This document shows, piece after piece, positions 14,610-25,950 of a stretch of 64,000 nt of DNA (within the stretch, counting starts at the first letter, position 1; the number at the start of each line of letters is the position of its first letter). Where the stretch lies: NCBI GenBank assembly GCA_025210525.1, contig JAOARP010000010.1, positions 62,001-126,000 on the forward strand, given 5' to 3'. The notes under the pieces were generated by a model. The model had not been told where the DNA came from and ran no database searches. It worked only from the letters and a program-made list of their open reading frames with translations. The position numbers and the translations under genes were made by a program. The DNA is from Marinisporobacter sp. GTDB lineage: Bacteria > Bacillota > Clostridia > Peptostreptococcales > Thermotaleaceae.

Positions 14610-14613
14610 AATA

Positions 14614-14653
14614 AAAAGACAACTCTCTTATTTTTAATGAGTTGTCTTTTTCA
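14614..14653 (+). terminator. Terminator of plsC
   Basis: A perfect 11-bp stem (AAAAGACAACT/AGTTGTCTTTT) with a long loop and a T tract. Confidence 0.88.
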
Positions 14654-14975
14654 TTCTATATTTACCTGCGAATCATTCATGTTTTGGTGGACTCACCCCT
14701 TTAATCTAAATTGTTCTATCTTTCCTCAATCTTTTAAATTCTAGTTTAAATCATCTCCTCTCTTTTGTTATTTTATATATACCCATACTATTTTTAGTAA
14801 AACATTTTTATCTAGTTAATTTTGAATTTTCTTAAAATACCTCTACTAAAGTTTGAAAACTATAGCCTTTGTTGTTATTTCTCATGGAGATTTTAGCTTG
14901 CAACGTATTATCAATAATTAAAAATATAGTAGAATCCTTTGATGTTTTAGATAAATTAGTTAACCTTGAATTATT
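14654..14975. other. Degenerate region at the left edge of the island
   Basis: About 320 bases with no intact gene. On the minus strand a roughly 54-codon open piece (about 14836-14996) ends in a stop and reads like the C-terminus of a lost protein (...IIDNTLQAKISMRNN...). It has no start or ribosome site and I do not recognise it. Probably decay at the island boundary. Confidence 0.4.
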
Positions 14976-15062
14976 CGTAACCTCATGATTTAGGAATAAT
15001 TTGTTTTAAATTTTACGTATTCAACTAAAATAAACAAAATGAAAGCAAAAAATTATGAGTTG
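14976..15062 (+). repeat. Left copy of imperfect direct repeat flanking the island
   Basis: This stretch (sharing TTTAGGAATAA, TTTTAAATTTTA, ACGTATT and AATGAAAGCAA blocks in order) recurs at 25481-25578 in the same orientation with scattered changes and one small insertion. The two copies bracket the IS/RiPP island. Confidence 0.75.
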
Positions 15063-15232
15063 ATTTTATAATCAAGTATGTACTAGTATATATAACGGTG
15101 TTTGTCAATGGAGTTGTCGTATAAAATTTGATCTTCTTGTTATGGTCGATTTTTAAGAAATACATATCTTGAATATTTTACCATTTATTTTTCAAAAACA
15201 GTCACTTATTAAAATATCCATTCTTTGAAAAA

Positions 15233-16225
15233 TTATATTACATCATTTTCAAGCAAATCTTTAATCTCATCTGTTGGATTTAAAGCAACAGCTTTAGGAA
15301 CTTCCCACTTTCTTATTCCTTTATTAAATCTCTGCGGATTAAGCCTACGTACTGATTCATATAGTTCCTTTCTTCTTCTCATGATTTCTTCATCTTGTCT
15401 ATTATGTCTGCTATTTGGGGTTAAAAAATTTATTCCGCTATGATAGTGTTTGTTGTTGTACCAATTAACAAAAGCACAAACCCATTCTCTTGCATCATCA
15501 ATAGTCTTAAACCCATCTTGTGGATATCCGGGTCTATACTTTAAAGTCCTAAAACCAGCTTCTGAATAGGGATTGTCATTACTTACTCTAGGTCTTGAAT
15601 AAGAGGATAATACTTCAAGTAATTCAAGTCTTTCTTTTAGAGTATGCGATTTCATGGGAGCTCCATTATCAGAATGTATTACTAATGGTTTACCTTTGAT
15701 TTTTTCAGCTAAGATGGCTCTTTCAACAAGTTCTGAAGCTAATTCTCCAGTTTCTTCTGGCCATACTTCCCATCCTACAATTTTTCTACTATAAATATCT
15801 ATAATCATATATAGTTTAAAGTAAATACATCGAGTGTAAGTGTTTAGCCATGTGATCTCCCAAGTCCAGACTTGATTTGGTCTAGTGGCTATATGTGTAG
15901 TTGGGAATTTACTTTTCTCTGGGGGTTTACTATTTCCACGATGGTGTTGTAAATTTTCCATTCTAAGAATTCTGTAAAATGTAGATTCAGAAGCAATATA
16001 GCTGCCCCTATCTGCTAGGGCAGGTACAATCTGAGACGGTGGTAAATCTGCATATTCAGGCTTGTTTACTATGTTTAACACACATTGGTATTCTTCCTTG
16101 CTAAGCTTATTCTTAGGTTCTGGTCTTATAGCAGTCTTTCTCTTATCTTCTTTAACTTCTCCACCTTGACACCAACGTTCATATGTTCTCTTGCTAATGC
16201 CTGCCGTTTCACATGCTGGAATCAA
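15233..16225 (-). CDS. IS3-family transposase OrfB (DDE integrase core)
   Basis: A 330-residue rve-type transposase. It has an N-terminal HTH_21-like region (about 40-95), then the catalytic core. The first acidic site reads VWTWEITWL where the family has W-D-I-T, so the first catalytic Asp is Glu. The second site is HSDNGAPM, and the third is the Glu in NPYSEAGFRTLKY. The open frame continues upstream of its TTG to the frameshift site in orfA, so the native product is probably an OrfAB fusion. Asp-to-Glu changes usually cripple DDE enzymes, so this copy may be inactive. Confidence 0.87.
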   Translation of the reverse strand: MIPACETAGISKRTYERWCQGGEVKEDKRKTAIRPEPKNKLSKEEYQCVLNIVNKPEYADLPPSQIVPALADRGSYIASESTFYRILRMENLQHHRGNSKPPEKSKFPTTHIATRPNQVWTWEITWLNTYTRCIYFKLYMIIDIYSRKIVGWEVWPEETGELASELVERAILAEKIKGKPLVIHSDNGAPMKSHTLKERLELLEVLSSYSRPRVSNDNPYSEAGFRTLKYRPGYPQDGFKTIDDAREWVCAFVNWYNNKHYHSGINFLTPNSRHNRQDEEIMRRRKELYESVRRLNPQRFNKGIRKWEVPKAVALNPTDEIKDLLENDVI

Positions 16226-16290
16226 TCTAGCACCATTAGCATTTGCTTCTCTTATTAAATCAACTATTAGTTTGCGATTTTCGATGATGA

Positions 16291-16797
16291 TTAATCTTCC
16301 TCGAAAATCGCATCTAACTTTTTTCTTAGCACCAGCAATGCTACTGTTTCAGCTAATGCCTTATCCTTTGGTCTTAATTCTTTTAATAATTCTTTAGATT
16401 TCATTTTCTCTTCAACTAGCTCTGTTTTGAGGTTTATAGAATTAACATGATCTGATTTCTGACCATTATTTGCATCCATACAGCTAATACGCCAATTTCT
16501 AACATTTTCAACATATAAGCCATGCTCTCTGCAATATTTAGAAAGTTCTATTTCTGATAATGTATAGGTTTCCATGACTATCATGAATTTTTCACGAGAT
16601 GAAAGTATATTTTTAGGTCGCCCACACTCTCTAGTGGGCTGACCTTTTAGAGCTTTTGATTTCCATGTTGATAATGTAAATTTATGTATACCTGTTTCAT
16701 TTGAAAGTTTGGTTACTGAACAATTTTCTGGTGGTAGCATTCTTTTTATTAATTTCTGTTTTTCTTCTATTGAATATCTTTTATTATTTTTTGCCAT
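16291..16797 (-). CDS. IS3-family transposase OrfA (helix-turn-helix protein)
   Basis: A 168-residue protein. The N-terminal helix-turn-helix (KRYSIEEKQKLIKRM..., about 7-50) binds the IS ends, and a coiled-coil (about 120-165) with VEEKMKSKELLKELR follows. Near its end the minus strand reads A-AAA-AAG (16318-16324), the classic -1 slippery heptamer of IS3 elements. A -1 shift there leads directly into the open frame of OrfB without meeting a stop. The ribosome site AAGGAGATTAAACCT precedes the ATG at 16797. Confidence 0.85.
   Translation of the reverse strand: MAKNNKRYSIEEKQKLIKRMLPPENCSVTKLSNETGIHKFTLSTWKSKALKGQPTRECGRPKNILSSREKFMIVMETYTLSEIELSKYCREHGLYVENVRNWRISCMDANNGQKSDHVNSINLKTELVEEKMKSKELLKELRPKDKALAETVALLVLRKKLDAIFEED
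16318..16324 (-). promoter_or_regulatory. Programmed -1 frameshift site (A6G) of the IS3 element
   Basis: Read as AGA-AAA-AAG in the orfA frame. After a -1 slip the frame stays open through the orfB start, so a fusion transposase would be made. Confidence 0.75.
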
Positions 16798-17026
16798 AGG
16801 TTTAATCTCCTTCTTTATTTTTATTCGAAAATATCATTAATTATCTCCTACGACAACGATCTTACCACGGGGGAATAACGTGAAAATAATTTAACATTGG
16901 TTTAATTTTCAAGTAAAATATTTATCCTACTAATAATATTATGTAAACATATATTATCAGTGGAGGTATAGTGATACATAATAAAAAGTTTGATGACAAT
17001 GAAAATACAAAAATTTTTAAAAATTA

Positions 17027-18022
17027 TTGCGAACTACTGATAATAAGCGAATGCATATGAGATATCATGTTATTATTCTTCATTATAAAGGATACACCAA
17101 TATTCACATAGCAAAGATAATGGATTTAAATGAGCATACTGTAGGTACTTATATAAGAAAATATAAAGAAAAAGGAATTGATGGTTTAGAAATGAAGAAA
17201 TCTACTGGCTGCCCATCCTATCTTTCTAAAGAACAACAAGAAAAATTATACGAAGTTATTACTACAAAAACACCTGATGAAGTGGGTTTTGAATACCGAA
17301 AAAATTGGACCGCAAACATTGCAAAACAGTGGGTTAGTGATAATTTTGGAGTAAACTACAGCGCTAGAGGAATGTTAGATGTCTTACACAGATTAAATTT
17401 AAGTTATACAAGACCTACTATACTTTTAAAAAAACAGATCAAGAGAGACAAAAAGCCTTTAACGAACACTTTGAGGTTTTAAAAAAAATTGATTAACGGA
17501 AAAATTGACCATATTCTTTTTGAAGATGAATCCATGATAAGAGATTATCAAGCAATAAAAAAAACATGGTTTGCTAAAGGGAAACAAAGAATAATACCAA
17601 CATGCGGAAAACATGAAGGAGGAAAACTTCTTGGGATTCTTAATTATGAACCAGGACAAATATACTGTGAAGACAAAAATAAATATGATGCACAAGTATT
17701 TTTAAGTTTTCTTAAAAATGTACTTAAAAAGTATTCAACAGGCAAAATTGTTATGATCTTAGATAATTCAAGAATTCATCATGCCAAATTATTAGAAGAC
17801 TTTTTACTACAAAATCAAGATAGGTTAACACTGTTCTTTTTACCACCTTATAGTCCACAACTTAACTTAATTGAGGGATTATGGGGGTGGTTGAAATATA
17901 CAGCCATTAATAATGCTTTCTTTTCAAATGTAAAAGAAATTAGAAATGCTGTACAATGGTTTATTAATCACATTAATGATACACCTGAAATCACAATAGA
18001 CAGGCTATGTGTTCAGGTGTAA
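17027..18022 (+). pseudogene. IS630-family transposase, interrupted
   Basis: The N-terminal helix-turn-helix half (17027-17482) and the DDE half (17489-18022) lie in the same frame but are separated by TAA. The catalytic residues are visible in FEDES, LDNSRIHH and NLIEGLW. Comparing the intervening reading shows the cause. An A7 run at 17428-17434 appears one A short, and an A8 run at 17481-17488 one A long. Between the two runs the true protein continues in another frame (...DQERQKAFNEHFEVLKK). So the gene has two compensating homopolymer indels. No clear terminal repeats were found. Confidence 0.82.
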
Positions 18023-18194
18023 TTTCATTAATGCGTTATATATAGAATTTTCTTTGAAAAATTTTATTCGAAAAGATATCATCCTACTAGCTTTGTATGC
18101 TTTTGGTAAAATAGTCCGTTTTATGATGTTAATGATACTATAAGCTAATCATTTAATCAGACATTTGATGTATTTGGTCATAAACAACGAATGA

Positions 18195-19085
18195 CTAAGT
18201 GTATTCATACCCAAGTCCAATAGTTTTTTTGATGAAGTTTTCCTTGTTACCACGTTTATTATATGTTTTAACAACCATTTTCGGTTCAGTATCAAGTGAA
18301 GTTACAATGAACGTTGCTCTTGGAAAGAATTCACCTTTCGCACGTTCAACTCTACAAATGACTCTTCATGCATTGAGTCGTATCACAAACTTACAGTTGT
18401 ATTCTTCACAAAGTTCATAGAAATCAGGTGTAGCAAAGGCACTATCAGCTCTAATTAGTATAAATATATTAGGATGTTCTTCTTCAAGCCACTTGAGAAC
18501 AGACTCAAGAAAAACTTTTACATTATTAGATGTATAAGCACTTCCTTTGCAAAGTTCTACTTTTATAAGATCACCATTCAAGCCATTATAAAGCATTAAA
18601 AAATGATATCTCATAGATGAATAGTGAAAGTTATAGACACTATTCTCCTATTTGCCAAAGATTTCAACATGTGTAGAATCAATATTCAACACAATGTGTT
18701 TCATTTTTTTAGGATGATTACTTTTTTTACACACATATCTAAATATTTCATTGAAATAATCAATGTGATATTTCTTTAATCTATTGATGCATCTAGAAAT
18801 CGTTGGTTGTAATGCTAAAGTATCTTTATCTAAGATATCAGTAAATATGGGATCATGTTGCAAATTATTTGATGCATTATCTGCATGATAGCCAGCAATG
18901 TTTGTATAAAACAATTGTTCAATAATTAGAGGCATAAGTATTTTTCCTAGAAATAGCATTATTAAATGATGTTTCTAAAAACTGTCTAATGCCTAGTTTT
19001 TCAAAGAATAAACGGATGATCAACAGACCAACATTACAAGAAAGATTACCACTACCGAAATCATGTAAGTATGATATCTGAAACT
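18195..19085 (-). pseudogene. IS1380-family transposase remnant
   Basis: Pieces in several frames together reproduce an IS1380 transposase on the minus strand. The N-terminal piece is GSGNLSCNVGLLIIRLFFEKLG. The first catalytic segment is LNIDSTHVEIFGK (about 18648-18700). YHFLMLYNGLNGDLIK and ADSAFATPDFYELCEE follow at about 18400-18614, and a late block TYNKRGNKENFIK sits near 18230. Frameshifts and stops near 18366, 18640 and 18950 separate them. It is clearly inactive. Confidence 0.82.
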
Positions 19086-19185
19086 ACTTGATTTCTAAAG
19101 GCTTTTAGGTATTTTTATTAGTTTTTATGAATCACGCAGATTTAATTGTATTTTTTTACTTTTTTTACAAAAACAAAAAAAAATG

Positions 19186-19214
19186 TAGACAAATTCAATA
19201 TATTGTATTAAAAT
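19186..19214 (+). promoter_or_regulatory. Candidate promoter of the RiPP precursor gene
   Basis: TAGACA, a 17-base spacer and TAAAAT lie about 60 bases before the precursor ATG. Between this and the ribosome site are several ATTACAT/ATGTAAT half-sites (19224-19256) that could be an operator. Confidence 0.5.
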
Positions 19215-19276
19215 GTAAATGAAATTACATAATTAATCATTAATGTAATATTATGTAAACGAAAGGAGGTTATAAT

Positions 19277-19426
19277 ATGAGAGAAGTATCAGCACGTTCA
19301 GTAGAAAATCCATGCATGTCTACGTGTTTGTCCATGTGTACAAGTATGTGTATTGTTCACCCAAATCCAATGGCAGCTAACTTGAATCTTGCAAATGATG
19401 GAGATATGTTTATGGAGTATAATTAA
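19277..19426 (+). CDS. Cysteine-repeat RiPP precursor peptide
   Basis: A 49-residue peptide behind an excellent ribosome site (AAAGGAGGT, 7 bases before ATG). Cysteines 13, 17, 21 and 25 are spaced exactly every four residues (CMST-CLSM-CTSM-C), with Ser at the middle of each spacer. A short charged N-terminus (12 residues) precedes this, and a Cys-free 24-residue acidic tail (NPMAANLNLANDGDMF...) follows. It lies about 1.1 kb before two radical SAM/SPASM genes and an exporter, on the same strand. A regularly spaced Cys-X3 array is a typical thioether-forming substrate of such enzymes. I do not recognise a named family. Which part is leader and which is core is not settled. Confidence 0.72.
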   Translation: MREVSARSVENPCMSTCLSMCTSMCIVHPNPMAANLNLANDGDMFMEYN

Positions 19427-19440
19427 ACATTTAAAATTAT

Positions 19441-19481
19441 TTACAAAATAGAGGTGGGGAAATCCACCTTTATTTTGTAAT
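19441..19481 (+). terminator. Long hairpin after the precursor gene
   Basis: Arms of 17 bp (TTACAAAATAGAGGTGG, one mismatch) enclose a 6-base loop. The 3' side is T-rich but lacks a clean T tract. It could terminate the transcript or stabilise the precursor mRNA. Confidence 0.65.
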
Positions 19482-19776
19482 AATTTAAAAATGATTTATA
19501 AAATTATAGTGAAATCAAATATTTGTTAAGATAACAAATTCCATAATTTTTAAGCATAGATTTTACTAACTTTTCAATTCTCAAATGCATCAAAAATACA
19601 AAATGGATTTCACCTCACAATATGGAATATATTAAGTGACCAAATGTAATACCCTAAAAGATCGCAACCACTTAATGTAACCTGTTGTGCTAGTAAAATT
19701 TGCACATAGACCCCCCAGCAAATTATATTAACCTATCATTAATAACCGGAAAGTAATTAAGATGGGAGGATAACAT
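19482..19776. other. Non-coding stretch with a possible IS end
   Basis: No gene is seen in about 295 bases. Near 19637-19725 two similar blocks (GACCAAATGTAAT and AACCACTTAATGTAAC) precede a CCCCCCA; on the minus strand this begins TGGGGGGTCTAT. This looks like a decayed insertion-sequence terminus of IS21 type, which is a weak call. Confidence 0.35.
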
Positions 19777-20280
19777 ATGCTAGAATTTACTAAGAAATAA
19801 TCTTTGAAAAAAATCTGTGATTTAAAAGATTTTATTACTGTCACCTATATACTAATTAACGATATTTACTAATAAATCACTCCAACACATATTACTGAAC
19901 GTAGAAATGTCAACAATTCTATTCTAAGTGATAGTGAAATAATTACTATTAGTATTGTCGGTCAACTGTTTACCATTGATTCAAAAAAGGCTTGGTTAGA
20001 ATTCTGTAGAAAAAATTTAAATGATTTATTTCCAAGCCTTTATGATAGAACTCGTTTTAACAGAAGCCGTATGGAACTACATTCAATAATTGATTAAATC
20101 CACAAAGAACTTTCATCTATACTAAGATATAGAACTCAATCAATTAGGATTATAGATTATATTCCTATCCTTGTATACAAATTGAAAAAATTCAAACTAT
20201 AAAAGATTAAGCGAGATTTTAAAATTAAAGTCAAAACATTTGGTAATCAACACTATATGAATCTTACTAAGTAAGCTACA
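19777..20280 (+). pseudogene. IS982-family transposase remnant
   Basis: An ATG with GGGAGGAT upstream opens a frame that stops after seven codons. Reading on in the same strand gives the IS982 pattern LSDSEIITISIVGQLFTID, AWLEFCRKNLNDLFP, RTRFNRSRMELH and IRIIDYIPILVYKLKK, interrupted by several stops. It lies between the precursor and the modifying enzymes, so it probably inserted into an older contiguous RiPP operon. Confidence 0.8.
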
Positions 20281-20515
20281 GTTTATATTTTTCAATTTAA
20301 ATAACTAACTATGTTAAAACTTCAACGAAAGTATCTTTTATATAAAAATATAAAGTATTTAGTGATATTCATATAGTGAGAAAATATATATAAATTTATA
20401 TTGCTGTCATTAAATAACTAGAATAAAGATATATTCTTCCAAAAAAAAAAATTAAAATTACTGAATTACAGTGTTTAATAATCTACTATTATGGTTTACG
20501 AAAGGAGTAATAAAT

Positions 20516-21958
20516 TTGTTAAGTAGTTTAAGTTATTTTGTGTTTTCAACAAAAAAAGGAAATTATTATGTGTATGATAATGAGACTGGTATAGTATATC
20601 CTATTACAGAAATACAAAAAGAAATATTAGAATTATATCGACATCAATATAGTATTGAATATATAAAAAATATACTAGAAAAAAAATATATTCCAAAAGA
20701 GATAGATAAAGAAATAGATAATATTAAGCTTATTAGTTCTAAATATAAACTATTTGTTCCTCAATCAGCACCTGAAATTCATTGTAATATTGAAGAAGTA
20801 AATAAAAAAAAGGGAATCCGACAGTTAATACTTGTTGTAACTGAAAATTGTAATTTAAGATGCAAATATTGTATATATTCAGGTCACTACGAGATGCACC
20901 GTACCCATAGTAAAAATTATATGCCTATTGAAATAGCTAAAAAATCAGTTGATTTCTATTTTAATTATAATAGTGAATATATTGAAACAAATCCTCAAAA
21001 TCAATTATGTATTGGTTTTTATGGTGGAGAACCATTGCTTAACTTTGAATTGATCAAGAATATAGTTCATTACGTTAATGCCAAATATAATCAAAATGAT
21101 ATACTTTATACTATTACTACAAATGGTACTTTATTAAATGATGAAAAAATAAGATTTTTGGTTGATAATAATTTTTCAATAAATATTAGCTTAGATGGTT
21201 CACAAATTGAACATGATCGTAATAGAGTTTATGCAAATAATTTGGGAACTCATGGAGATGTTCTTGAAAATATCAAAAAATTATATAAAATAGAAAAAGA
21301 ATCAAAAAAACCGAATAAAAATGAATTTAAAATAATGACCTGTTTTGATCACAAAAGTAACCTTTTGGAAGTTTCAGATTTTTTCGACAATAATGTTTAT
21401 TTAAAGAATCGCCATGCACGTATCATGAAAATAATTCCAGATAAAACTACATACTGTAGCAGCGATGATAAAAATCCCTTTATTAAAAAGTTACATACCC
21501 AATTTCAACAATCTTATGAAAAGAATAAACAGTCGTTTATTTCAACGTTTTTTGGACCTCAGTATACTCTATTATTTTCGAGAGACTTTTATAAAGTAAA
21601 TCCTACACGAGGAAATTGCATTCCAGGTAGTAAACTTGTTGTTGATTATCAAGGTAATTTTCATATGTGTGATAAGATGAGTAATAATTATCCTATTGGC
21701 AATATTCATACAGGATTCAATTATAAAATAATGAAACAATTCATGAATAGTTTTTATGAAAATATATCTAACCATTGTAAAGACTGTAATGTGAGTCGAT
21801 TGTGTATGTTATGTTTCGCCAATTGTGAAGATAAATCAGGCGAATTTAAAGTTGATAAAACAATATGTGAAAGAAATAAATCATCACTTCCTATGAATCT
21901 TTCAAATTTATATAGTTTGCTTGAAGAAAATCCTAATTTATTTAACGATGCAATATAG
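20516..21958 (+). CDS. Radical SAM/SPASM peptide maturase 1
   Basis: A protein of 480 residues from the TTG at 20516, chosen because AAAGGAG lies 8 bases upstream; the longer GTG at 20471 has no ribosome site. An N-terminal domain of about 95 residues could be a peptide-recognition (PqqD-like) domain. The radical SAM core then starts VVTENCNLRCKYC (Cys 112, 116, 119), followed by GFYGGEPLLNFE and ITTNGTLL. The C-terminal SPASM region is cysteine-rich (GNCIPGSKLVVD, FHMCDKM, HCKDCNVSRLCMLCFANC, TICERN) and fits two auxiliary Fe-S clusters. It resembles clostridial Cys-rich-peptide maturases, expected to install Cys-derived thioethers. Extremely AT-rich codons set it apart from core genes. It is 18 bases from the second maturase. 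Confidence 0.85.
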   Translation: MLSSLSYFVFSTKKGNYYVYDNETGIVYPITEIQKEILELYRHQYSIEYIKNILEKKYIPKEIDKEIDNIKLISSKYKLFVPQSAPEIHCNIEEVNKKKGIRQLILVVTENCNLRCKYCIYSGHYEMHRTHSKNYMPIEIAKKSVDFYFNYNSEYIETNPQNQLCIGFYGGEPLLNFELIKNIVHYVNAKYNQNDILYTITTNGTLLNDEKIRFLVDNNFSINISLDGSQIEHDRNRVYANNLGTHGDVLENIKKLYKIEKESKKPNKNEFKIMTCFDHKSNLLEVSDFFDNNVYLKNRHARIMKIIPDKTTYCSSDDKNPFIKKLHTQFQQSYEKNKQSFISTFFGPQYTLLFSRDFYKVNPTRGNCIPGSKLVVDYQGNFHMCDKMSNNYPIGNIHTGFNYKIMKQFMNSFYENISNHCKDCNVSRLCMLCFANCEDKSGEFKVDKTICERNKSSLPMNLSNLYSLLEENPNLFNDAI

Positions 21959-21976
21959 AAGGGAGAATGTATTTAT

Positions 21977-23221
21977 ATGTACTATAAATTATATCCTGAA
22001 AACACTATAGTTTATGGAAAGAAAGGATTTTGTATACATAGCATTATTAATTCTAAAATGTATCACTTTGAATCAAAATATATTCCCATTATAAAGGATA
22101 TTGAAAGAAATAAGCCACTAGAAGATATTTATAATAAATATGATGAAAAAACAGTAAAAGATTTAACACAATTCTTAAACGAGAAAGTACTTGGAAAATT
22201 TCATAAAAAAAATATATTTATTGAAAGATTAAGAACTTACACAAAGAATAATTATCTTTTAGAAAAATATTATAATGATTTTGAAATTTCAAGTGTTTGG
22301 ATAGAGTTAAATGGAAACTGCAATTATAATTGTAGTTTTTGCAATGAAGAAAACCATGTTTTAAAATCGTGTGGATGTAAAAAATGGCCAGATCAGAGAA
22401 ACTTAACACTGAATGATTATTATAAGTTAATAGATAAATTAATTGATTGGAAATGTAAAGAATATGTCTTTATGGGAGGCGAACCATTACTTAATATTGA
22501 AACATTAGAAGGAATATTAAATTATTTCAATAAAAAAAATTATAGTCCAAATATTACTATTTATACGAATGCGTTATTGCTAACAGACGAATTAATAAAT
22601 AATTTCAAACATTTTAATATTAAATATGTAATTACACTTTTCTCTCATAATGAGAAGACTTATGATTTAATCACTAAGATTAATGGTAGTTATAGAAAAG
22701 TAGTGAATACTATAACTAAACTGAAACAGCAAAAAATAGCATATACGCTTCAAGGATTAATAAGCCCGTATAATCAACACGAATTACCCGATTTTATAGA
22801 ATATTTAAAAAATCATAATTATACTTTAAATTATATATATGATACTGTAAATAACTATGATTATTATGAGGAAATAAATAAAATAGAAAATAAATTGATT
22901 TCAAGTGATTATTTAGATGAAGCAAAGCATTATAATTTTTGTTTCTATAAAAAAATAGCAATATCAAATACGGGTGATATTTTCCCTTGCCCAATGATAA
23001 GATATTCATCTTTAGGTAATATCAAGAAACAAAGTTTGGTTGATATAATAAAAGAGAAAAAGATTTTTGAATTCTGGGAACTTACAAAAGACAAAATTGA
23101 AGATTGTAAAAATTGTGAATATAGGTATGCTTGTTTAGATTGTAGAGCATTAGAATATGCACAAAGTGGTAGCTTGTATAAAACTAATTTTTGTGAATAT
23201 GCTGGAGAGAATAATAAATAG
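21977..23221 (+). CDS. Radical SAM/SPASM peptide maturase 2
   Basis: A 414-residue radical SAM protein. An N-terminal domain of about 100 residues (peptide-binding domain candidate) precedes the cluster motif NGNCNYNCSFC (Cys 115, 119, 122), then VFMGGEPLLN and ITIYTNALLL. The C-terminal region (NFCFYKKIAISNTGDIFPCP, DCKNCEYRYACLDCRA, NFCEY) is SPASM-like. It differs from maturase 1 in all but these motifs, so the two probably carry out different steps or act on different residues. The ATG has AAGGGAG upstream, 18 bases after maturase 1; they are translationally linked. No homologous third enzyme or protease is present. Confidence 0.85.
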   Translation: MYYKLYPENTIVYGKKGFCIHSIINSKMYHFESKYIPIIKDIERNKPLEDIYNKYDEKTVKDLTQFLNEKVLGKFHKKNIFIERLRTYTKNNYLLEKYYNDFEISSVWIELNGNCNYNCSFCNEENHVLKSCGCKKWPDQRNLTLNDYYKLIDKLIDWKCKEYVFMGGEPLLNIETLEGILNYFNKKNYSPNITIYTNALLLTDELINNFKHFNIKYVITLFSHNEKTYDLITKINGSYRKVVNTITKLKQQKIAYTLQGLISPYNQHELPDFIEYLKNHNYTLNYIYDTVNNYDYYEEINKIENKLISSDYLDEAKHYNFCFYKKIAISNTGDIFPCPMIRYSSLGNIKKQSLVDIIKEKKIFEFWELTKDKIEDCKNCEYRYACLDCRALEYAQSGSLYKTNFCEYAGENNK

Positions 23222-23752
23222 AAAAAGTATCAAATGCTTTGTAAATCAACTAGTTATCTAGAAAAGAAAATAAAAAAAATTTTTAAAATATAATATAAAG
23301 TATGAATGTACATCTTTAGAATATTTCATAGCCACATAGTAGAAAGTAGATATTAATGAAATTTAAATTAGGTAATTTAAAAAAGTAATAAATCGTAATC
23401 TGCATTAAAATTTTAAAACTTGTAGGCGTGCAATCATCAAAATGCAGGAATTATACTCTAATATAATTTTGCCTTATATTAAGATATCAGTAAAATTAAA
23501 GATCTTAATCTTACAGCTTTAAGTAGACTTAATCCTAAAAAGTGACCTTCAGTCACAGATATTTATATCTAAATCCACCTACTTTGAGTAGGTGGTCGTT
23601 TAATCACAAAATAATACTTTCAAAAAATATATTTTTCAGATAATAACTGTTAATTTTTATACATTTATCAAGAGATTCATCATAAAAAACAGAGTAGTTA
23701 GGATATTATATGAGTTTTTATGGGTGCTTAATTAGATTATGGTGGTGATAAA
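23222..23752. other. Gap between maturases and exporter, with hairpins
   Basis: About 530 bases with no gene. It contains GTGAC-CTTCA-GTCAC (about 23543-23557) and a perfect 9-bp hairpin, CCACCTACT-TTG-AGTAGGTGG (23577-23597), followed by TCGTTTAATC. The pair resembles the end hairpins of IS200/IS605 elements. A relic of such an end, or a terminator, are both possible. Confidence 0.4.
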
Positions 23753-25465
23753 ATGAAATCTATGATTAAAGAGTTTAAAAACATATACAATGTAATGAAT
23801 ATTCATAAGAATAAAAAATTATACAGTGAAATAACTATAAAAGATTTTAAAGATATCTTTTATTTTATTAAAGGTTATGAACATAGATTTGTCGTTGCTA
23901 GTATTATGCTTATTATAACATCACTTATAGTATTACCAATACCATGGTTAACGAAGATTGCAATTGATGACTTAGTATATAATAATGGAACTGATCGATT
24001 TTTCACAATATTAATTGTAATTTCTGGTATTTATCTTTTAAAATTGATGTTAAGCTTTATCACAAAATATTTATTTATTCACCTTAATAATAGAATTTTA
24101 GCTAATTTACAAAGGTCTATATTTAAAAAGATATTGAAATTTCCATTATCATATTTTGATGAAAATCCATCTGGTTATATATTAGGCAGAATACAAGAAA
24201 CAAAAAATTTAAGTGCCCTTTTTTCTCCTTCTTTAACAAATCAATTTATAATGATAGGAGAGTTTTTTTTCTCATTGTTTATTTTATGGCATATAAACTG
24301 GCAATTAACATTAATAACTATAATGATTTTACCTGTATATTTTTATATAATAAAGTTTTCTCTTAGTGGCATTAAAATTGTAACCAAAAAAATGCTTGAG
24401 CACAATGTTCTTTTATTAGAAAAAACACAAGAAATATTTTCAGGAATAAGAACAATAAAGTTATTTGCAAGCGAAAAAAAAGAAACTGATAAATTTAATA
24501 ATAGCTTAACAGCTTATGTTGATAGCAATATTAAACAAAACTTACTTTTAAGTGTATTAACTGAACTTCTTATATTTTTAGGTTCTGTTTTGAGTGTAAT
24601 TATGTTATGGCAAAGTGGTATTAGAATAATTGCAAAAACACTTACCATAGGTAGCTACATAGCCTTTATAAGTTATAGTAGTAAATTAGTAGGTGCTATT
24701 CAATCATTAGCATCCTTTAATTTAACTTTACAATCAATTGTAGTTTCTCTTAAAAGAATAAAACAAATTATGGAATATGTTGAAGAAGATAATAGAGGAG
24801 AAAAAAAAATAAGACTGGAAGGTAATATATCTTTTAATAATGTAGATTTTTCTTATAATAATTCTCGTCAAATTTTTAGAAACTTTTCTTTTAGTATTAA
24901 CTCACAAGAACGAATAGGAGTATTTGGTTCTAATGGTTCAGGAAAAACAACATTAATAAAACTTTTATTAGGTTTATATGCTCCTCAAAAAGGACAAATA
25001 CTGATTGATAATATAAACCTTACGGACATAGATTTATCTAATTTAAGAGAACAAATAGGAATAGTTTCACAAGATATTTTCTTATTTAATGATTCAGTTA
25101 TCAATAACATAAAGTATTGTCAGCCTGATTTGATTGATAGCGAAATATTAAAAATCATACTAGATTTGGGATTAAATCATATTTTTGATAATATGCCTAA
25201 AAAATTAACTAGTACTATAGGGGAATGTGGTTGCAAATTATCTGGAGGTCAAAAACAAATTATTGCTCTATTAAGAGTATTTATAAAAAAACCTAAATTC
25301 TTGATAATAGATGAAGGAACTTCAAATTTAGATGTAAAAACAGAAGTCAAAATAAAAGAAATCATTATGAATTATTTTAAAAATATTACGACTATAATAA
25401 TAACTCATAATTCGATGTATGATGAAATAATAGATAAAAAAATTAATCTAGATAAAATACAATAA
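23753..25465 (+). CDS. ABC exporter, fused permease-ATPase (putative peptide export)
   Basis: A 570-residue half-transporter. Six membrane helices (about residues 45-320) precede the ATPase domain. The ATPase shows Walker A GSNGSGKTT, Q-loop GIVSQDIFLF, signature LSGGQK, Walker B FLIIDEGTSNLD with catalytic Glu, and the H-loop THNS. All are intact, so it should be active as a homodimer. There is no N-terminal C39 peptidase domain, so leader removal, if any, needs another protease. It shares strand and base composition with the maturases and most likely exports their product. Confidence 0.87.
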   Translation: MKSMIKEFKNIYNVMNIHKNKKLYSEITIKDFKDIFYFIKGYEHRFVVASIMLIITSLIVLPIPWLTKIAIDDLVYNNGTDRFFTILIVISGIYLLKLMLSFITKYLFIHLNNRILANLQRSIFKKILKFPLSYFDENPSGYILGRIQETKNLSALFSPSLTNQFIMIGEFFFSLFILWHINWQLTLITIMILPVYFYIIKFSLSGIKIVTKKMLEHNVLLLEKTQEIFSGIRTIKLFASEKKETDKFNNSLTAYVDSNIKQNLLLSVLTELLIFLGSVLSVIMLWQSGIRIIAKTLTIGSYIAFISYSSKLVGAIQSLASFNLTLQSIVVSLKRIKQIMEYVEEDNRGEKKIRLEGNISFNNVDFSYNNSRQIFRNFSFSINSQERIGVFGSNGSGKTTLIKLLLGLYAPQKGQILIDNINLTDIDLSNLREQIGIVSQDIFLFNDSVINNIKYCQPDLIDSEILKIILDLGLNHIFDNMPKKLTSTIGECGCKLSGGQKQIIALLRVFIKKPKFLIIDEGTSNLDVKTEVKIKEIIMNYFKNITTIIITHNSMYDEIIDKKINLDKIQ

Positions 25466-25480
25466 GCTAAGTTTTTATAT

Positions 25481-25578
25481 TCATAACCTTATAATTTAGG
25501 AATAAATTTATTTTAAATTTTAATTTTTACGTATTTCAGCTAAAGTCAACAGAATGAAAGCAAGACAATGAGTTTGTG
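25481..25578 (+). repeat. Right copy of imperfect direct repeat flanking the island
   Basis: Matches 14976-15062 in the same orientation (blocks TTTAGGAATAA, TTTTAAATTTTA, ACGTATTTCA, AATGAAAGCAA). It runs into the IS3 remnant. Confidence 0.75.
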
Positions 25579-25950
25579 CCTTTGTTTATTAGTATAATAA
25601 CAAACACTATCATAGTGGAATAAATTTTTTAACACAGAATAGCAGATATCATGGACAAGATAAAGCAATAAGGAGAAAAAAAGGAACTATATGAGACAGC
25701 ACGTAGACTTAATCCTCAAAGGTTTAATAGCTGGATAAGAAAGTGGAAAGTTCCTAAAGCTGTGGCTTTAAATTCAACAGATGAAATCAAAGAGTCACTT
25801 GAAAATGATGTAATATAATTTTTTAATGGATAGATACTTTCAGGAGAATTTCTTTTTAATAAATAGTAAAATATTCAATTTTGATATTTCTTAGAAATCA
25901 ACCATAATAAGAAAATTAAATTTTATGCAACAACTATATTAACAAACACT
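25555..25950 (+). pseudogene. Truncated IS3-family element (OrfB C-terminus and IS end)
   Basis: In shifting frames it reads the last 85 or so residues of the same transposase as at 15233-16225: NNKHYHSGINFL, RRLNPQRFN, KWKVPKAVALN and ENDVI before the stop at 25816-25818. The following 125 bases match the outside of that element, including the terminal repeat near 25924-25944. The orientation is opposite to the intact copy. The 5' three quarters are gone. Confidence 0.82.

Follow-up and report, generated by a model that had tools for sequence, protein, structure and literature searches.

Which product, if any, is made by a locus in which a short cysteine-rich peptide is encoded upstream of two radical S-adenosylmethionine (rSAM) enzymes and an exporter, as expected for a ribosomally synthesized and post-translationally modified peptide (RiPP)? 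We investigated this question for a stretch of 64,000 nucleotides from Marinisporobacter sp. (assembly GCA_025210525.1, contig JAOARP010000010.1, positions 62,001 to 126,000), called the window in the following. The four genes in question, with the respective type of evidence in brackets, are:

19277..19426, + strand: precursor peptide, 49 residues (open reading frame (ORF), motif count, composition)
20516..21958, + strand: rSAM1, a TrnC-like radical SAM/SPASM maturase with an N-terminal region like a RiPP precursor recognition element (RRE), 480 residues (family models, alignment, structure-profile match, tree)
21977..23221, + strand: rSAM2, a second radical SAM/SPASM protein in the position of TrnD, 414 residues (motifs, family models, alignment)
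23753..25465, + strand: fused permease/ATPase exporter of the ATP-binding cassette (ABC) type, 570 residues (PF00664 and PF00005)

An initial annotation of this DNA had listed these components, i.e., a peptide with four cysteines at 4-residue spacing, two divergent maturases, an intact fused exporter and a very low GC content on a single strand, and all of this holds (GC fractions of 0.243, 0.234 and 0.240 within 20-26 kb vs. about 0.30 around it). We conclude that this is a real RiPP locus of the two-maturase type known from thuricin CD and thuricin Z; its precursor is uncommonly polar and passes no family model. Based on sequence comparison, we further consider it very probable that the locus is of sactipeptide type and works as proposed below. 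The product is probably a short secreted peptide with four sulfur bridges, chemically unusual among the relatives of the antibacterial peptides thuricin CD and thuricin Z.

First, we studied the precursor. Its cysteines at positions 13, 17, 21 and 25 form a CX3CX3CX3C run that is preceded by 12 and followed by 24 residues, and AGGAGG is found immediately 5' of its ATG. Among the 429 window ORFs of 25-120 residues, only this one carries the motif, while 0.025 such ORFs are expected by chance per shuffled window (40 dinucleotide shuffles). No match was found in Pfam, NCBIfam or PHROG, and no occurrence of CMSTCLSMC in the literature searched.

Next, we evaluated the two maturases. Their genes are separated by 18 bases, both frames are open throughout, and the two proteins are divergent from each other. 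The CX3CX2C motif reads CNLRCKYC in rSAM1 and CNYNCSFC in rSAM2, and both have a seven-Cys SPASM tail according to sequence reading and three-way alignments. For rSAM1, the tail spacing is Cx11Gx4Cx35Cx2Cx5Cx2Cx17C, which fits the published TrnC type (Cx11Gx4Cx36Cx2Cx5Cx2Cx14C; PMC12093266) when compared with that pattern rather than with the TrnC sequence itself. An alternative GTG start at 20471 would extend rSAM1 to 495 residues; the TTG at 20516, which lies 3' of GAAAGGAG, is the more likely start.

The best solved structure for an rSAM1 profile is 5wgg (E=1.5e-41), which we take to be the ranthipeptide enzyme CteB; the match spans positions 16-471 and therefore covers the N-terminal region as well. 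This bears on whether the maturases instead make a ranthipeptide with beta/gamma-carbon crosslinks, or another radical linkage, rather than sactionines. The best NCBIfam match of rSAM1, CcpM (TIGR04068, 248 bits), points in the same direction, as does a score of 145 bits for the ranthipeptide model PapB (NF047865; 47.5 bits for rSAM2), and the acceptor carbon is not fixed by sequence. On the other hand, these rSAM1 scores are far below the respective cut-offs of 500 and 340, neither maturase passing PapB, and the CXXX-repeat target maturase model TIGR04115 yields 98 bits against a cut-off of 350. Furthermore, we calculated a maximum-likelihood tree from 24 rows of rSAM1-like enzymes, leaving out G795 (G and L numbers denote our genomes and loci). 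Nine enzymes from paired loci, including that of the window, come together there with support 99/100, while all six CcpM rows fall, along with three other rows, into a different set (support 100/99). Within its set, the window enzyme groups with those of G325 and G608 (support 93/85). The tree has long end branches and one doubtful outgroup join, and near-copies from a single family make up four of its rows. Since characterised enzymes of the paired layout are described to form alpha-carbon bridges (PMC8172795, PMC12093266), we regard a ranthipeptide-like linkage as improbable.

To find relatives of the locus, we searched genomes of increasing taxonomic distance. With rSAM2, 1 of 16 genomes of the host's family, namely the host alone, matched at E<=1e-20, and 5 of 391 genomes of the class, host included, at E<=1e-25. 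With rSAM1, 2 of the same number of class genomes (host and G325) matched at E<=1e-55. A three-row rSAM1 profile matched 2 of 22 genomes of G325's family at E<=1e-70 as well as, at E<=1e-60 and each including the host, 9 of 398 genomes of the phylum and 14 of 393 of the order. We read the neighbourhoods in all 8 other phylum-search genomes (10 places) and in 11 of the 13 other order-search genomes, i.e., all except G978, G952 and a second place in G983.

Nine other loci were found to combine paired maturases with a CX3C-spaced precursor ORF directly upstream: those of G325 and R. albus (pRUMAL03, from a search of plasmids), six of the eight phylum-search genomes (G608, G585, G567, G591, G420, G504) and one of the eleven order-search genomes (G795). 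That is, the search of RiPP families and related genomes that the initial annotation had suggested finds precursors present, rather than absent, beside homologous maturases. In 8/9 loci the precursors show a strict 4-residue-spaced run of 3-6 cysteines, while R. albus has two CX3C pairs. The window rSAM2 is 32-34% identical to its counterparts in G608 and G325 and 19-26% to those of R. albus, G585, G567, G591, G420 and G504; the seven SPASM cysteines are also kept in the rSAM2 of G325, R. albus, G608, G585 and G591. Two assignments are less direct. For G325, a contig break splits the pair, such that the link between rSAM1 and rSAM2 is based on best-in-genome matches at contig ends. For G795, where tblastn gave no specific match for the window rSAM2, only a brief one inside the rSAM1 gene, the second enzyme is assigned by its place, CX3CX2C motif and SPASM tail. 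Loci with one rSAM1-like enzyme were seen in G562, G431 (twice), G420 (a second locus), G069 and 10/11 order-search genomes; no second radical SAM/SPASM gene was found within the fetched stretches, several of which end at contig ends.

Given these loci, we asked whether the 49-residue ORF might be a chance frame, with the true precursor elsewhere or lost. Its distance to rSAM1 is about 1.1 kb, compared to about 300 bases or less in the relatives, and the shuffle test reported below leaves no similarity apart from the Cys pattern. In contrast, the low expected motif count, the good ribosome-binding site and the placement 5' of the maturases, which the nine relatives share, argue for a genuine gene, and we consider a chance ORF very improbable.

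We then compared the locus with its closest known systems, where TrnC, TrnD, ThzC and ThzD were compared through published descriptions. Thuricin Z/huazacin (thz/hua) of Bacillus thuringiensis serovar huazhongensis likewise has two distant rSAM maturases and ABC transport. Its published bridges connect Cys4/8/12/16 to residues 38/34/30/26 (PMC8172795), which implies CX3CX3CX3C donors, as in the window, and acceptors every four residues starting ten residues after the last Cys. The seven thz genes listed in the same source include no protease. The window differs in having one precursor gene instead of two, in the lack of a match to the huazacin model NF037972, in an insertion sequence (IS) relic that divides the cluster and in a core that is polar and Met-rich compared to the relatives found here, ThzA being known by description only. 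With thuricin CD, the window shares a TrnC-like rSAM1 with the same type of SPASM Cys spacing and an RRE-like N-terminus (PMC12093266, PMC3132745) as well as a second rSAM gene directly downstream. Here, the differences are one peptide with four cysteines vs. two with three, seven SPASM cysteines in rSAM2 vs. the three-Cys TWITCH domain described for TrnD (PMC12093266), and that no protease was recognised in the window cluster. The huazacin-family locus on pRUMAL03 of R. albus 7 is alike in gene content and order (precursor(s), rSAM1 with 33% identity, rSAM2 with 26%, ABC genes), while its precursor passes NF037972 (50.1 bits) and has its Cys pairs arranged as CX3C-X7-CX3C. The link of CcpM to the window is that it is the top NCBIfam match of rSAM1; the low score and the separate tree set distinguish the two. 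Regarding the initial annotation's view that two maturases for one short peptide are unusual, two are described for each of thuricin CD (TrnC+TrnD) and thuricin Z (ThzC+ThzD) (PMC12093266, PMC8172795). Both enzymes act in the case of thuricin Z, while in that of thuricin CD one is mainly a partner. The initial annotation's statement that it could not place the precursor in a named family stands insofar as no family model is passed, while Cys spacing, position and partner enzymes assign the peptide to the thuricin CD/thuricin Z type.

From these comparisons, we infer the following route. In the precursor, a short leader would be combined with an N-terminal half in which the four cysteines recur every four residues, while the C-terminal half would supply the acceptors. 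The two maturases, probably acting together in a complex, would bind the precursor by RRE-type regions at their N-termini and would link the sulfur of every Cys to an alpha carbon within the acceptor half. RRE-RRE contacts have been reported for TrnC/TrnD. The outcome would be a nested four-rung hairpin with a total mass change of -8 Da, which the fused ABC exporter would secrete. On the thuricin Z register, the predicted rungs are C25-N35, C21-A39, C17-D43 and C13-E47. The locus thus offers a falsifiable bridge map and a divergent natural test of two radical SAM enzymes sharing one short peptide, and it ties a sequence named by no family model to the thuricin type.

Several observations weigh against this assignment, most of them on the precursor. 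It does not match NF037972 (cut-off 35 bits) even at a maximal E-value of 10. Respective scores of the relatives are 50.1 bits for R. albus, 34.4 for G585b, 26.1 for G325, 16.8 for G420, 9.9 for G567 and 9.5 for G585a, while neither of the two G608 peptides is matched. A profile of ten relatives puts the precursor at the top of the 429 window ORFs, with E=0.085 only; its score is equalled by 350/1000 shuffles that keep the cysteines and by 0/1000 full shuffles. This suggests that any kinship to the relatives beyond Cys spacing and position is weak, and it is these two together with the partner enzymes on which the filing of the precursor is based. Its composition also deviates, with a grand average of hydropathy of 0.03 (relatives 0.63-1.70), 6 Met residues (relatives 0-2) and 10% Gly+Ala (relatives 23-55%). 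The precursor's P-x-P lies one residue earlier than that of the relatives, and the predicted bridge register may thus be off by one. The acceptor positions speak both ways. Counted from the last Cys, position +10 is Asp, as in thuricin Z, and +14 is Ala in 9/12 relative precursors each, where the window has Asn and Ala; D/N at +10 plus A at +14 occurs in 3.8% of tail shuffles, and the pattern was spotted post hoc. In these data, some of the relatives' starts are GTG frames that were taken as given and are maybe too long, and one precursor (G608a) was entered one codon late in the profile, composition and register tests, which leaves positions based on the last Cys unaffected. The cluster layout counts here as well, since the IS982 relic and a hairpin separate the precursor from the maturases, and the insert shows no recognisable protease and no recognisable gene dedicated to immunity.

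The polarity of the peptide may also bear on its function. Of the multiply crosslinked, secreted and possibly antimicrobial peptide that was suggested initially, the RiPP locus stands, and thioether crosslinking and export are probable; any antibacterial role would be conjectural, and the peptide is of uncommon polarity within its group. A rather unlikely variant is that of a hydrophilic, Met-/Asn-rich four-rung sactipeptide with a role other than membrane killing, in contrast to the relatives, which are more hydrophobic and richer in Gly/Ala; in this variant the ladder would act as a scaffold, e.g., for metal binding (via Met, His and acidic side chains) or for signalling, with both maturases being catalytically competent. 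The latter is suggested by rSAM2, which keeps the full rSAM motif and its seven SPASM cysteines.

With regard to layout, two further features lie in the 1.1 kb between precursor and rSAM1:

19440..19482, + strand: hairpin just 3' of the precursor (-23.7 kcal/mol, z -7.9)
19876..20199, + strand: relic of a decayed IS982-family transposase (NF033520 match, with stops)

The relic piece 19876-20094 matches NF033520 with E=1e-9 (38.4 bits vs. a cut-off of 130), while piece 20098-20199 has no NCBIfam match; the gene is broken by stops. The hairpin is a possible terminator or attenuator, and a terminator consensus scan reports a terminator-like site there on the - strand only. The exporter, for which family models gave no peptidase domain match, starts about 530 bases past the end of rSAM2 and is 31% identical to the exporter 3' of rSAM2 in G325. 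Given this second gap and the IS982-holding one, the cluster is not one compact operon.

This raises the question of whether we are looking at a decaying remnant, i.e., genes with open frames whose joint expression has been lost or that yield no product. Such decay is suggested by the relic and the strong hairpin, by IS remains on both sides (to the left IS630, IS1380 and IS3; to the right what looks like an IS3 scrap) and by the further ABC genes, possibly for immunity, that lie beside the G325 and G795 loci and were not found in the window cluster. Against it, the frames of precursor, maturases and exporter are open and the expected metal-binding cysteines are kept, even though stops interrupt the IS982 gene that lies between these genes. 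We thus regard a remnant as unlikely, if with a real chance, and a two-maturase sactipeptide-type locus as the preferred reading. Still, the activity of the cluster is uncertain, given the IS-littered insert and the relic that parts precursor and maturases.

The cluster is located within the following segment:

14869..25883 (approximate, alignment edges), no strand: IS-rich segment holding the cluster (comparison with three same-genus genomes)

On either side of it, at 10.75-14.7 kb and 25.9-28.8 kb of the window, all three same-genus genomes can be aligned (about 77-92% identity), while no alignment of >=60 bases at E<=1e-8 was found in them between about 14.87 and 25.88 kb. Since the insert is absent from these genomes and littered with IS elements, the cluster has probably arrived by horizontal transfer, as a passenger at a site whose content varies. 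At window 14610-25950, each of the three genomes holds other DNA. Within 15233-18959, transposases of the IS3 (two frames) and IS630 families and IS1380 transposase fragments are stacked and adjoin one another, the IS630 transposase being split into 17027-17482 and 17489-18022. The IS3 scrap at about 25.6-25.8 kb was recognised by eye (no NCBIfam match at E 0.01). A phage origin of the cluster was rejected, as the PHROG scan matched general radical SAM families alone.

The related loci are of use for asking what sets rung number and register, among them four genomes of one family in which six-Cys CX3 ladders (CGAVCGGGCSAGCGGGCVGGC...DGPIPxGD or close) are found 5' of paired rSAM genes:

L091 6026-6313: six-Cys ladder precursor
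L092 5451-5738: six-Cys ladder precursor
L093 5730-6080: six-Cys ladder precursor
L094 3200-3490: six-Cys ladder precursor

They are possible six-bridge sactipeptides; the scanned ones score 9.9 (L091) and 16.8 bits (L093) against the huazacin cut-off of 35. The second maturase of L091, L093 and L094 keeps CX3CX2C, while the usual GGE motif was not found in it, which may reflect weakened SAM chemistry. In G795, from the host's own order, two different CX3CX3C precursors (L142 5533-5837) are followed by paired rSAM and ABC genes, a possible two-component, thuricin CD-like locus. Two CX3CX3C precursors with paired rSAM genes behind them are also present in G608 (L089 5221-5574). They contain CLIACVGGC and CWLGCGSFC and resemble the Caldicellulosiruptor kristjanssonii peptides (CLIACVGGC, CWIGCGSFC) reported by Murphy et al., where the respective enzymes match TrnC (5e-77) and TrnD (7e-61) (PMC3132745). 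Finally, in G871 (L149 1245-2039), a 264-residue SPASM protein without the radical SAM CX3CX2C motif lies directly 3' of an rSAM1-like gene and retains the rSAM2 tail (40% identity over 118 residues).

Beyond these genomes, a search of genome contigs with an rSAM2-alignment profile gave at least 26 generic radical SAM loci. With tblastn at 1e-12, the paired layout was seen in none of the loci among the matches listed, generic rSAM1-like matches being present in L014, L026, L034 and L035. Viral contigs held no rSAM2 relative and 37 rSAM1 relatives (best-segment identity 26-44% or less). Cys-rich ORFs also lie close to rSAM2 homologues in L004, L005 and L012; being of other kinds, with no rSAM1 match alongside, they were rejected. 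On plasmids, the P. sordellii locus L008 has three radical SAM genes according to its annotation. In L101-L103, a single rSAM1-like gene with a SPASM tail is found per locus, that of L101 in pieces, together with other Cys-rich precursors; at the cut end of L103, the annotation shows a further radical SAM gene.

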